Positions 31,840 through 37,161 of a stretch of 64,000 nucleotides of DNA are shown here, piece after piece. The stretch comes from Malikia granosa (GTDB taxonomy: Bacteria > Pseudomonadota > Gammaproteobacteria > Burkholderiales > Burkholderiaceae_C): NCBI RefSeq assembly GCF_002980595.1, contig NZ_PVLQ01000015.1, forward strand, positions 1 to 64,000, given 5' to 3'. The notes under the pieces are model-generated. The model was not told the DNA's origin, searched no databases, and saw nothing but the letters and a program-made list of their open reading frames with translations. The translations under genes were made by a program, and so were the position numbers. Numbering within the stretch: the stretch's first letter is position 1; every line of letters starts with the position of its first letter.

Positions 31840-32739
31840 TCAGCAGCGGATCGGACGGCGCTTCTGGGTATAGACCTCCTCCCAGATCTCGGTCTCGACA
31901 TAGTGGTTCTTGTCGATCTGGTCGGCCACCTCGTAGAGCGAGAACTGCATGTTCTGCAGCTCGGCCAGCAGGTCTTCCAGCGGCCGTTTCTCGCCCAGTC
32001 GCTCGGCCACCTGATGTCCGAGCAACTGCATCACGTCGATGGTCATCGGCATCACGTAGAGCATGTTGTCCTTGATGCCGGTCATCAGCTCGCGGTCGTA
32101 CAGCTCCTCGTCCCAGTGCGCCAGGGTGGTGCCTGGGCCGTAGTCGGTCTCGACCCGGTAGTTGGCCAGCGCTGGCAGCCTGGCCACGGACGCGGGCGTG
32201 AAGCGGCCGGTCTGCGGGTCGAACAGGGTCAGCCAGCGCTCCCAGCCCATGCCCAGCGTGTGGCCGATCTCGTGGATCAAGGTGCCGGCGATCTCGACAT
32301 CGCTGAAGATGCCGAGGAAGTTGGTGTTGAACTCGACCGCGCCGTAGACCACGCCCTTCTCGGCATAGGGTTTCCAGGCCCGCGCGATGGTGTTGCCGAA
32401 GCTCGTGAAGACGCCGATCCGGATCACGATCGACTGCTGCGGGATCAGGTAGCGGTTCCAGAAGTTGCAGGCCAGCCGGGCCAGGGCCTCGAGCTTGCCG
32501 CTGCTGTCCGAGGTGATCTTGTAGGTGATCAGCGTGGTCTTGGCTACCGGAGCCGCCGGTTCGAGGTAGGCGCTGTAGCACCAGCCCTCGAGCGCGCCGC
32601 AGCGGATGTAGAACCATTTCTGCTCGACCTTGAGTTTCTCGACCTTTTCGCCGCGCGGCAGCACGCCGACTATCGAGCCCTTGAGTTCGGGGCGCTGGCG
32701 CACGTTGAGCGCCGTGGCGGTGACCTGGTACTGGTTCAT
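31840..32739 (-). CDS. SH3b-domain, leishmanolysin-like zinc metalloprotease
   Basis: This 299-residue protein begins with a bacterial SH3 domain (residues ~3-62: ALNVRQRPELKGSIVGVLPRGEKVE ending at GWCYSAYLE). A zinc-protease domain follows: HEIGH at residues 156-160, and 48 residues later H208 in AHWDEELYDRELMTG. A later Met-rich turn, YVMPMTIDVM, follows. This order and spacing fit peptidase family M8, whose third zinc histidine lies far from the HExxH motif. There is no signal peptide or membrane segment. It stands alone, convergent with fdhD. Substrate and location are unknown. Confidence 0.7.
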   Translation of the reverse strand: MNQYQVTATALNVRQRPELKGSIVGVLPRGEKVEKLKVEQKWFYIRCGALEGWCYSAYLEPAAPVAKTTLITYKITSDSSGKLEALARLACNFWNRYLIPQQSIVIRIGVFTSFGNTIARAWKPYAEKGVVYGAVEFNTNFLGIFSDVEIAGTLIHEIGHTLGMGWERWLTLFDPQTGRFTPASVARLPALANYRVETDYGPGTTLAHWDEELYDRELMTGIKDNMLYVMPMTIDVMQLLGHQVAERLGEKRPLEDLLAELQNMQFSLYEVADQIDKNHYVETEIWEEVYTQKRRPIRC

Positions 32740-33892: not shown

Positions 33893-33975
33893 GTGTTTTC
33901 CTCCCTGGCGGGACGATGCGGCAGCCGGCTGCCTTCACGTCCTGGGGCGTCGATGAAAAGGGACACCCGCCGGTC

Positions 33976-34004
33976 ATCCTAATGGGATAAGGTAGATCTG
34001 ACAA
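33976..34004 (-). promoter_or_regulatory. sigma-70 promoter for the PHB-depolymerase-type gene
   Basis: On the minus strand TTGTCA (33999-34004, five of six matches) and TAGGAT (33976-33981, four of six) are exactly 17 bases apart, about 84 bases before the start codon. This is the best -35/-10 pair I found in the window. Confidence 0.6.
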
Positions 34005-34104
34005 TCTTTGGCTGGGTGATGCCGAGAGCCCTCGTTTTCTTTTTCCGCCTGGACTGGTCCGCCGGATAATCTGGGTTTATCCATGCTCCTGAAGGGAGCC
34101 TGCC

Positions 34105-35412
34105 ATGTCCGATCTGTTTGCCCAAGAGCCCGTAGCTCCCCTGGCTGAAGCCCTTCGCCCCAAGACCTTGGACGAGGTCATTGGTCAGTCGCATTTGCTG
34201 GGTGACGGCAAGCCCCTGAGGCTGGCCTTCCAGTCGGGCAAGCCGCACTCGATGATCTTCTGGGGGCCGCCGGGTGTCGGCAAGACCACCTTGGCCCGGC
34301 TCACTGCCACCGCCTTCAAGTGCGAGTTCATCGCCCTGTCCGCGGTGTTCTCGGGTGTGAAGGACATCCGTGCGGCCATGGAGCAGGCCCAGCAGAACCT
34401 GGCCATGGGCAAGCACACGATCCTGTTCGTCGACGAGATTCACCGCTTCAACAAGTCGCAGCAGGATGCGCTGTTGCCCTATGCGGAAAGCGGTCTGGTC
34501 ACCTTCATTGGCGCCACCACCGAGAACCCGTCCTTCGAGGTGAACTCGGCCTTGCTGTCGCGCGCCCAGGTCTATGTGCTGCAGTCGCTGTCCGACGAGG
34601 AACTCAAGCAGTTGCTGCAACGGGCGCAGGAGAAGGCGCTGGGCGGGCTGGAGTTCGACGACCTGGCGCGGGACACCATCATCGGCTATGCGGACGGCGA
34701 TGCCAGACGATTCCTGAACCTGCTGGAACAGTGCCAGACGGCTGCCGGTGCCGCCGGCGTGAAGAAGATCGATGCCGACTTCGTGCAGAACGCCCTGACC
34801 TTGAATTCAAGGCGTTTCGACAAGGGAGGCGACAGCTTCTATGACCAGATCTCGGCCTTGCACAAGTCGGTGCGGGGCTCCCATCCGGACGCCGCGCTCT
34901 ACTGGCTGACCCGGATGCTGGACGGCGGGGCCGATGCGCGCTATCTGGCGCGGCGCATCGTGCGCATGGCCTGGGAGGACATCGGCCTGGCCGATCCCAG
35001 GGCCATGCAGATCGCCAACGATGCGGCACTGACCTATGAGCGGCTGGGCAGCCCCGAGGGCGAGCTGGCGCTGGGCCAGGCCGTGATCTACCTGGCCGTC
35101 GCGGCCAAGAGCAATGCGGGCTACAAGGCCTACAACGCTGCCAAGGCCTTCGTGAAGCAGGACAAGAGCAGGGAGGTGCCGGTCCATCTGCGCAATGCGC
35201 CCACGAAGCTGATGAAGGAACTGGGCTACGGCCACGAATACCGCTATGCCCATGACGAGCCCAATGCCTATGCGGCGGGCGAGACCTACCTGCCCGACGG
35301 CATGGCCGAGCCGGGCTGGTATCAGCCGGTGCCCAGGGGGCTGGAGCTCAAGATCGGCGAGAAGCTGGCGCTGCTGAAGCAATGGGATGAGGCGGCCTGG
35401 AGGGATAAATGA
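34105..35412 (+). CDS. rarA: replication-associated recombination protein A (MgsA/RarA)
   Basis: This 435-residue AAA+ ATPase, related to clamp loaders, acts at stalled replication forks. Seen: DEVIGQSHLLG, Walker A GPPGVGKTTLA, Walker B LFVDEIHRFNKSQQD, sensor TTENPSFEVN, the oligomerisation region KSVRGSHPDAALYWL, and a C-terminal TYLPDGM ... RGLELKIGEKL. It is full length, with AGGGAG before the ATG. GATAAT at 34065-34070 inside the palindrome GGATAA/TTATCC is a possible -10 box. Its stop overlaps a short frame that repeats its own C-terminus. The gene reads as less rich in CG runs than lysS next to it, an impression only. Confidence 0.93.
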   Translation: MSDLFAQEPVAPLAEALRPKTLDEVIGQSHLLGDGKPLRLAFQSGKPHSMIFWGPPGVGKTTLARLTATAFKCEFIALSAVFSGVKDIRAAMEQAQQNLAMGKHTILFVDEIHRFNKSQQDALLPYAESGLVTFIGATTENPSFEVNSALLSRAQVYVLQSLSDEELKQLLQRAQEKALGGLEFDDLARDTIIGYADGDARRFLNLLEQCQTAAGAAGVKKIDADFVQNALTLNSRRFDKGGDSFYDQISALHKSVRGSHPDAALYWLTRMLDGGADARYLARRIVRMAWEDIGLADPRAMQIANDAALTYERLGSPEGELALGQAVIYLAVAAKSNAGYKAYNAAKAFVKQDKSREVPVHLRNAPTKLMKELGYGHEYRYAHDEPNAYAAGETYLPDGMAEPGWYQPVPRGLELKIGEKLALLKQWDEAAWRDK

Positions 35413-35570
35413 CAGATGTCGGCTTCGCGTCCGGCAAGAGCTACCTGCCCAAGGGCCCGTCAAGTCCCTGCTTCCACCGTCCGGTCGAGCGCGGACTCGA
35501 GATCCGGATCGTAGCCAAGCTGTGCGAGCGGCAAGAGTTGAACCGCCTGCCGCGCGAAAAATTAGAATAG
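35409..35570 (+). pseudogene. second, partial RarA C-terminus (53 codons)
   Basis: This frame starts at an ATG overlapping the rarA stop (ATGA) and encodes 53 residues. It aligns without gaps to the last ~35 residues of RarA: FASGKSYLPKG to YAAGETYLPDG, and RPVERGLEIRIVAKL to QPVPRGLELKIGEKL, roughly half identical. It lacks all ATPase motifs. The likely explanation is a relic of an older rarA allele left behind when the present copy was inserted or replaced it; an old tandem duplication is the alternative. It could still be translated by coupling. Confidence 0.7.
35538..35568 (+). promoter_or_regulatory. candidate promoter for lysS
   Basis: TTGAAC (35538-35543) and TAGAAT (35563-35568) precede lysS. 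Each box is good, but the spacer is 19 bases, longer than ideal. The pair lies inside the RarA C-terminal relic. Confidence 0.4.
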
Positions 35571-35616
35571 ATGGTTTGTGCGCAGGCCGCGCACGCCGCA
35601 ACCCCCATCCAGCCCC

Positions 35617-37161
35617 ATGACGCAAGAACACCACGCCCCCCAGGCCGAAGACCACAACCAGCTGATCGCCGAGCGCCGCGAGAAGCTCAAGGGCCTGCGC
35701 GAAGCGCAAGCCGCCGGTGGGGGCGCTGCCTTCCCGAACGACTTCAAGCCGCAGCACCGTGCCGAGCAACTGCAGGCCGAATACGGCCACCTGAGCAACG
35801 AGCTGCTCGAGCCGTTGAAGGTGCGCGTCAGCGTGGCCGGCCGCATGATGCTCAAGCGCGTGATGGGCAAGGCCAGCTTCGCGACCGTGCAGGACTCGTC
35901 CTTCGGCCCGACCGGCGGCCGCATCCAGGCCTACATCAACAACGAGGGCGTCGGGGCCGAGGTGCACGCCGCCTTCAAGCACTGGGACCTGGGCGACATC
36001 ATCGCGATCGAGGGCGAGCTGTTCAAGACCCGCACCGGCGAGCTCACCGTCAAGGCCGACAAGATCCGCATGCTGACCAAGAGCCTGCGTCCGATGCCCG
36101 ACAAGTTCCACGGCATGCAGGACCAGGAGATGAAGTACCGCCAGCGCTATGTCGACCTGATGATGGACGAGCAGGCACGCAAGCGCTTCATGGCGCGCAG
36201 CCTGGCTGTGACCAGCATCCGCGAGTTCATGGTGCAGAACGACTTCCTGGAAGTCGAGACGCCGATGCTGCACCCGATCCCGGGCGGCGCCAATGCACGT
36301 CCCTTCGTGACGCACCACAACGCGCTCGAGCAGGACATGTACCTGCGCATCGCGCCCGAGCTTTACCTGAAGCGCCTGCTGGTCGGCGGCTTCGAGCGCG
36401 TGTTCGAGATCAACCGCAACTTCCGCAACGAAGGCATCAGCGTGCGCCACAACCCCGAGTTCACCATGATGGAGTTCTACGCGGGCTACTGGAACTACCT
36501 CGACCTGATGGTGTTCACCGAGGAGCTGATCCGCCATGCCGCCCAGCGCGTCTGCGGCGGCGCCAAGCTGAGCTACCAGGGCCGCGATGTCGACCTGGAA
36601 GCACCGTTCGAGCGCCTCACCATCCGCGAGGCCATCCTCAAGCACACCGAGGCCGGCGACCAGGTTGACGACCGCGACTGGCTGATCGCGCAGCTGCGCA
36701 AGCTCGGCATGGACCCGGTCAAGGACCGCCTGGACAGCCGCAGCCTGGCCGGCCTGCAGGTGATGTACTTCGAGGAGACGGTCGAGGACAAGCTCTGGAA
36801 CCCGACCTTCATCTGCAACCACCCGACCGAGATCTCGCCGCTGGCGCGCGCCAGCGACAACGATCCGAGCGTGACCGAGCGCTTCGAGCTCTACATCACC
36901 GGCCGCGAAGTCGGCAACGGCTTCTCCGAGCTCAACGACGCCGAGGACCAGGCCGCGCGCTTCCACGCCCAGGTCTCGAACAAGGATGCCGGCGACGACG
37001 AGGCGATGTACTACGACCACGACTTCGTGCGCGCGCTCGAGCACGGCATGCCGCCGGCCGGCGGCTGCGGCATCGGCATCGACCGCCTGATCATGCTGCT
37101 GACCGACAGCCCGAGCATCCGCGACGTGGTGCTGTTCCCGGCGCTGCGCCGCGAGAGCTGA
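35617..37161 (+). CDS. lysS: lysyl-tRNA synthetase, class II
   Basis: This 514-residue class II synthetase charges tRNA-Lys. The N-terminal OB-fold anticodon domain ([20 protein letters not shown] onward) is followed by the catalytic core with motif 1 ([18 protein letters not shown]), motif 2 ([15 protein letters not shown]) and motif 3 ([10 protein letters not shown]). The start ATG is the family start MTQEHH; a further 13 codons upstream are open but not conserved. Length is normal. It is followed by a hairpin and stands alone. Confidence 0.97.

Follow-up and report, generated by a model that had tools for sequence, protein, structure and literature searches.

Elements of the SXT type insert in prfC and supply only a new 5' end. 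Elements with a tyrosine integrase are described, in a review of IMEs (PMC5704250), as lying mostly at the 3' or 5' ends of genes, where the gene is spared, and internal sites are described as leading to disruption. In E. coli, according to another study (PMC9012371), expression of serS, the next gene, requires the last 15 nt of rarA, and the growth defect does not arise when a rarA deletion spares the final 41 codons. Here we describe a locus of Malikia granosa in which a rarA of foreign origin stands directly before the tail of the native gene; the foreign gene probably arrived on a mobile element that uses rarA itself as its insertion site and carries a full replacement for it.

The window, i.e., the whole stretch of 64,000 nucleotides that was analysed (contig NZ_PVLQ01000015.1, positions 1 to 64,000), contains the following features at this locus; G001 to G004 denote the four congeners.

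33975..34071, + strand: native upstream region of rarA, ending at the join GATAATC/TGG (alignments with G001, G002 and G003)
34072..34104, + strand: leader accompanying the foreign rarA, read as an island left-end remnant by way of G003 and G004
34105..35412, + strand: full-length rarA, 435 aa, assigned as foreign (xenologous) from identities, tree and GC3
35409..35570, + strand: relic ORF, 53 codons, with homology to native rarA over 35420-35570, the last ~49 codons plus the stop
35538..35568, + strand: candidate lysS promoter within the relic (TTGAAC 35538-35543, 19-nt spacer, TAGAAT 35563-35568), recognised by eye
35578..35594, + strand: inverted repeat GTGCGC-AGGCC-GCGCAC in the lysS leader, in 5/5 genomes of the genus
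35617..37161, + strand: lysS (Pfam tRNA-synt_2 and tRNA_anti-codon), 93-95% in the four congeners

The gene at 34105-35412 belongs to RarA/MgsA, with Pfam matches to AAA (61.7 bits), AAA_assoc_2 (81.9) and MgsA_C (215.5), each above its cut-off. Its stop TGA is joined with the ATG of the relic ORF in a 4-base ATGA overlap; no sequence separates the two, which adjoin. The lysS start, taken as the ATG at 35617 (a GTG lies in frame at 35578), follows 46 bases past the end of the relic ORF. Upstream, 33975..34071 is conserved in blocks with G001 and G002 (CATCCTAATGGGAT..., CCGGATAATC) in the alignment. In G003, lysS (C82:49224-50798) has one internal TGA, which is either a sequencing error or real.

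The original prediction held that the 53-codon frame overlapping the rarA stop matches the RarA C-terminus without gaps at about half identity, and this was borne out: the ORF aligns ungapped with RarA residues 389-421 at 16/33 identical positions, and the BLOSUM62 score of 89 was not reached in any of 1000 shuffles (maximum 47), by which a chance alignment was rejected. When the genome itself was searched with the relic ORF, the sole further match below E 1e-3 was the rarA C-terminus (4.6e-6), the third match having an E of 0.756. Among 80 RarA sequences, the best two matches were the native rarA tails of G001 and G002, each identical at 34/49 positions, and in the DNA alignments homology to the native gene begins at ~35420 and continues without a break past the rarA end and across the lysS leader into lysS. 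With both its closest relative and its syntenic place pointing to the native gene, the segment 35409-35570 is, as judged from sequence, the 3' end of the species' original rarA and not a copy of the adjacent RarA. Substitutions at the three codon positions number 12/7/10 and 13/6/9 between the relic and the two natives, and 2/3/6 between the natives; the relic therefore shows no coding constraint, because there is no third-position excess against either native.

That the relic is a duplication of RarA's own C-terminus could be argued from its resemblance to the adjacent C-terminus (16/33), and this reading was rejected as extremely improbable, since the natives of G001 and G002 match far better (34/49) and the DNA homology continues into lysS; the pattern expected of a duplication, with both parts closest to each other, was looked for and not seen. 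It is likewise very unlikely that the ORF functions as a small gene whose translation is coupled to that of rarA: the ATGA overlap with the rarA stop and the 53 open codons would suit such a gene, but the codon-position counts given above do not, and no separate homologue was found in the genome.

Regarding the full-length gene, the window RarA is 93% identical to those of G003 and G004 and 92% identical to an island-borne copy in a genome of another genus (G022), versus 65-67% to the native gene of G001 and G002. In the latter two genomes est is followed by rarA and then lysS, and their single rarA, directly upstream of lysS, belongs to a different class; the check in sister species suggested by the original prediction thus found, at this place, intact genes with a relic-like end (34/49). 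In a tree of 80 RarA sequences, which was also among the proposed checks, G001 and G002 fall in the native clade and the window RarA lies outside it, in a clade of 15 rows (99/92) that also contains G003, G004 and the island copies found in G022 and Janthinobacterium. Within this clade the window is not grouped with G003 and G004 (the rival grouping has 82/14), and the rarA genes are mosaic between the three. Codon usage, too, sets the gene apart, GC3 being 86% in rarA versus 91-94% in four neighbouring genes; four island-borne rarA copies have 47-63%. The full-length rarA of the window is thus to be regarded as foreign, and the predicted placement of a foreign rarA before the remnant of the native gene was upheld, with the relic nearest to the natives of G001 and G002 and RarA in another clade. 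For the window, an explanation by ancient paralogy and vertical descent was rejected on the grounds that a native rarA occupies the same place in G001 and G002 and that the native tail was kept.

The same prediction assigned a metalloprotease, an esterase and rarA to one accessory patch, and this was only partly confirmed. The foreign status of rarA stands, and a metalloprotease-like gene (window 31840-32739; Pfam SH3_3, weak Peptidase_M8) was found next to rarA in three of the five genomes of the genus, namely the window, G003 and G004, and not in the 20 kb around rarA in G001 and G002. The esterase has to be taken out of the patch: it is core to the genus and not accessory, because it lies on one and the same side of rarA in 5/5 genomes (3.8 kb away in G004). 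Of the recombination junction that had been postulated, the join of foreign and native DNA is real; rather than the generic edge of a patch, a decayed scar of a rarA-targeting element explains it better.

Across the family, RarA was found at E < 1e-22 in 392/399 genomes. Among the matches listed, the best match to the window RarA was at least 74% in 64 genomes, the next being 71%; partial matches, such as that of G412 (78% over codons 114-433), were not counted among the 64. The group at or above 74% and the lower group are both present in 19 genera (table read by eye, matches listed). Membership of the upper group does not always mean foreign origin, since the rarA genes interrupted in G027 and Janthinobacterium are themselves ~81% identical to the window RarA. 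In G084 a full rarA is present on each of two contigs (L097 and L116), with identities of 74% and 66% to the window RarA, which may reflect coexistence or contamination. In plasmid records rarA is present as well, the best among the matches listed being 74% to the window RarA.

In other genomes we found islands inserted in rarA. Their insertion site, TTCAACAA, comprises codons 115-117, after Walker B, and encodes F115-N116-K117 of DEIHRFNK. In G022 and in Ramlibacter sp. H39-3-26 (G027) the native rarA is interrupted: its part up to codons 117-118 lies upstream of a complete foreign rarA, and the remainder of the native gene (from codon ~107-115) is found, by coordinates, ~43 kb (G022) and ~33 kb (G027) off, beside a tyrosine-recombinase gene, a Pfam Phage_integrase match next to one end marking a tyrosine integrase in both. 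A full rarA beside a native 5' part split at this site occurs in G022, G027, G159, G242, G423, G424 and G425, and the short core is identical at the left and right junctions of G022, G027, G423, G424 and G425; split rarA matches in G074 and G110, which reflect contig ends, were excluded, and G249 and G408 were outside the analysis. A scan of 84,980 species gave four relatives of the integrase, in Janthinobacterium sp. PC23-8, a Rhodoferax MAG, a Propionivibrio MAG and Ramlibacter sp. H39-3-26. All six full-length integrases found (the four scan relatives, G022 and G412) lie beside a rarA 3' fragment starting at the core, and a 70-residue integrase fragment was seen within the Janthinobacterium island, away from rarA. 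In Janthinobacterium, Rhodoferax and Propionivibrio the native 5' part is followed by a full rarA (the Rhodoferax copy is cut by the contig end).

The cargo falls into two backbones, one in G027 and Propionivibrio and one in G022 and Janthinobacterium, which have in common rarA, the integrase (44-46%), a 237-aa gene (65%, G022 and Propionivibrio) and a methylase (28%, a weak match). The G027 island encodes a TrwC relaxase, a TrwB coupling protein, ArdC and a type III-like restriction pair; homologues of its mobilisation genes occur in G425, and none were recognised among ten G022 proteins scanned. The island-borne rarA genes of Ramlibacter, Rhodoferax and Propionivibrio are 98-99% identical, and the interrupted native genes differ. 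The integrase is rare, being present in 3/399 genomes of the family; it had no match at E 1e-40 in the genus of the window, no plasmid match at E 1e-20 and no confirmed occurrence in viral contigs, and at E 1e-60 it was found in 0/399 genomes of an order sample and 0/369 of a class sample, zeros which show little by themselves. Since no report of rarA as an insertion site was found in the open-licence PMC literature, tyrosine-integrase islands targeting rarA are apparently an unreported family.

At their left ends the islands follow a common design. The island rarA begins 94-118 nt from the left junction, behind leaders of 94, 97 or 118 nt, and in 7/7 intact left ends the truncated native frame is open through the leader up to a TGA located 5 bases past the A of the foreign start codon, an ATG. 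The native frame is the sole frame open in all seven; shuffling gave p 0.07-0.18 per leader for this openness, and the leaders represent about three independent types. What appears to be kept is the frame and not the peptide, because leader substitutions are spread over the codon positions, and we infer that the foreign rarA may be translationally coupled to host rarA expression through this open frame.

Less complete arrangements were found in further genomes. G159 has a native 5' part, the foreign rarA, 2.4 kb and then the native tail, and G242 has a native 5' part, the foreign rarA, 8.9 kb and a native tail from codon ~403. By tblastn, a native 5' fragment was detected at 4/52 loci whose rarA is full or near-full and belongs to the window group, and not at the other 48, and a detached native tail at 2/52; both counts are minimum values, since the search missed the short G004 remnants and some contigs end early. 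In G004 (L038:10284-10463) the native start (VNKPHVPLVEQL) and 15 native codons up to FNK are followed by an island leader, which resembles the island left ends of G022 (z 10.1) and G159 (z 11.7; 0/1000 shuffles each) and the Janthinobacterium island leader (z 3.9, 4/1000 shuffles). The core is altered at 3/8 positions, the core-to-ATG spacing is 94 nt as in the islands, and the frame, after losing ~90 codons, is open to ATGTCTGA. Among 63 leaders tested, natives included, the island-like ones were those of G258 (z 17.7) and G004 (z 9.6), the next reaching 4.9. These features show, at the level of sequence, that this congener keeps what can be recognised as a decayed left island junction. The window leader resembles those of G003 (z 16.4) and G004 (z 6.9), and its direct resemblance to the island leaders is weak (z <= 3.0). 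The window is not itself an island, with no integrase at E 1e-40 in its own genome and nothing between rarA and the relic; it is read as the most reduced scar from the inner leader and the join GATAATC/TGG to native upstream DNA, both common to the window and G003, and it would derive from an event common with G004.

The congeners also differ downstream of the foreign rarA. In G004 (L038:11620-15495) a second event is visible, the last rarA codons being AT-rich and island-like and followed by cargo without Pfam matches, with a displaced GC-rich rarA tail (codons 410-431) 3.7 kb downstream. In G003 (L036:15225-18533) a 1102-aa helicase with six HA repeats and a restriction-like N-terminus lies between the foreign rarA and lysS; it was the only one of ten cargo proteins recognised by PADLOC, as restriction-like.

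Why the tail stayed may be related to lysS, which is an essential gene. The candidate promoter TTGAAC-19-TAGAAT is located in the last native rarA codons, GAAAAATTAGAATAG, which are identical in 4/5 genomes of the genus and are followed by the inverted repeat in all five. A strict promoter scan of the window (spacers 16-18) gave one minus-strand site and none for lysS, the 19-nt candidate going unreported. The candidate fits the genus-conserved sequence as well as the precedent of rarA-serS in E. coli, and retention for the lysS promoter would be the likeliest reason for the survival of the tail, which probably persisted because the relic holds that promoter.

We consider it highly probable that an island entered the native rarA with a complete foreign rarA and then decayed, leaving the native tail that was kept for the lysS promoter. 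In an ancestor common to the window, G003 and G004, an integrative island would have entered the native rarA at codons 115-117, with the complete foreign rarA sitting directly inside its left junction; transcription and translation of the native 5' end would have passed to the foreign gene because of this placement and because the fused frame is open to the TGA overlapping the ATG. Deletions, whose order is conjectural, would later have removed the native 5' fragment, so that the foreign rarA came to follow the native upstream region, as well as the island, integrase included, and the greater part of the native 3' segment, and the last ~49 native codons would have been kept since the lysS promoter lies there. 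The weak resemblance of the window leader to island leaders, the placement of the window RarA apart from G003 and G004 within the clade, the rarity of the integrase and the presence of non-foreign genes in the upper group count against this route. Replacement could also have come about without a rarA-targeting element, through linear foreign DNA brought in by transformation or conjugation and joined before the native tail by homologous or homology-assisted illegitimate recombination. The mosaic rarA genes among G003, G004 and the window, the 48/52 window-group loci lacking a detected native 5' fragment (a lower-bound detection by tblastn) and the integrase not being found in the genus at E 1e-40 speak for this, and homologous replacement or inheritance may indeed account for many window-group loci, because most are without detected remnants. 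For the window, however, we regard it as unlikely: simple homologous exchange would produce a chimera instead of a complete foreign gene followed by a native tail, G004 has an island junction with the native start and the exact 94-nt spacing, and the same island arrangement at the same site is found in seven other genomes.

Insertion by an island thus remains the preferred explanation, and it offers a traceable mechanism for the in-place swap of a conserved DNA-repair gene, in which the substitute would be wired to the promoter and reading frame of the host. Its stages are visible across related genomes, the genus of the window included, from islands of ~32-43 kb (by coordinates) to a tail of 150 bp. 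More tentatively, and with somewhat less confidence than an even balance would warrant, we envisage a self-compensating element whose integrase acts in distant beta-proteobacteria on rarA, at its conserved Walker B region, in which an entire rarA is coupled to the truncated host gene via a leader selected only for an open frame, and whose repeated cycles of insertion and decay swap the host rarA. If true, such cycles would explain much of the patchy two-class distribution of rarA in the family (19 genera with both) and would leave native tails wherever a downstream promoter must survive. The locus also suggests a natural counterpart to the accidental finding in E. coli, the rarA end being indispensable where a tRNA-synthetase promoter lies within it.

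Compared with known systems, the rarA islands are like IMEs and genomic islands in having a single tyrosine integrase by one junction and a short core repeat at both, and the G027 island is like IMEs in carrying a relaxase and a coupling protein. Both the SXT-type elements and the rarA islands hit a housekeeping gene and restore its product, the rarA islands bringing a complete gene. Unlike most of the IMEs covered in the review (PMC5704250), they use an internal site, break the native gene and supply a whole replacement with a frame-preserving leader; an internal site together with a full, frame-coupled replacement gene would be new among elements with a tyrosine integrase. In E. coli rarA-serS (PMC9012371), a tRNA-synthetase gene likewise follows rarA, and it depends on the coding end of rarA, whereas in the window the gene is lysS and not serS, the replacement is natural and not a constructed deletion, and the promoter is a candidate.
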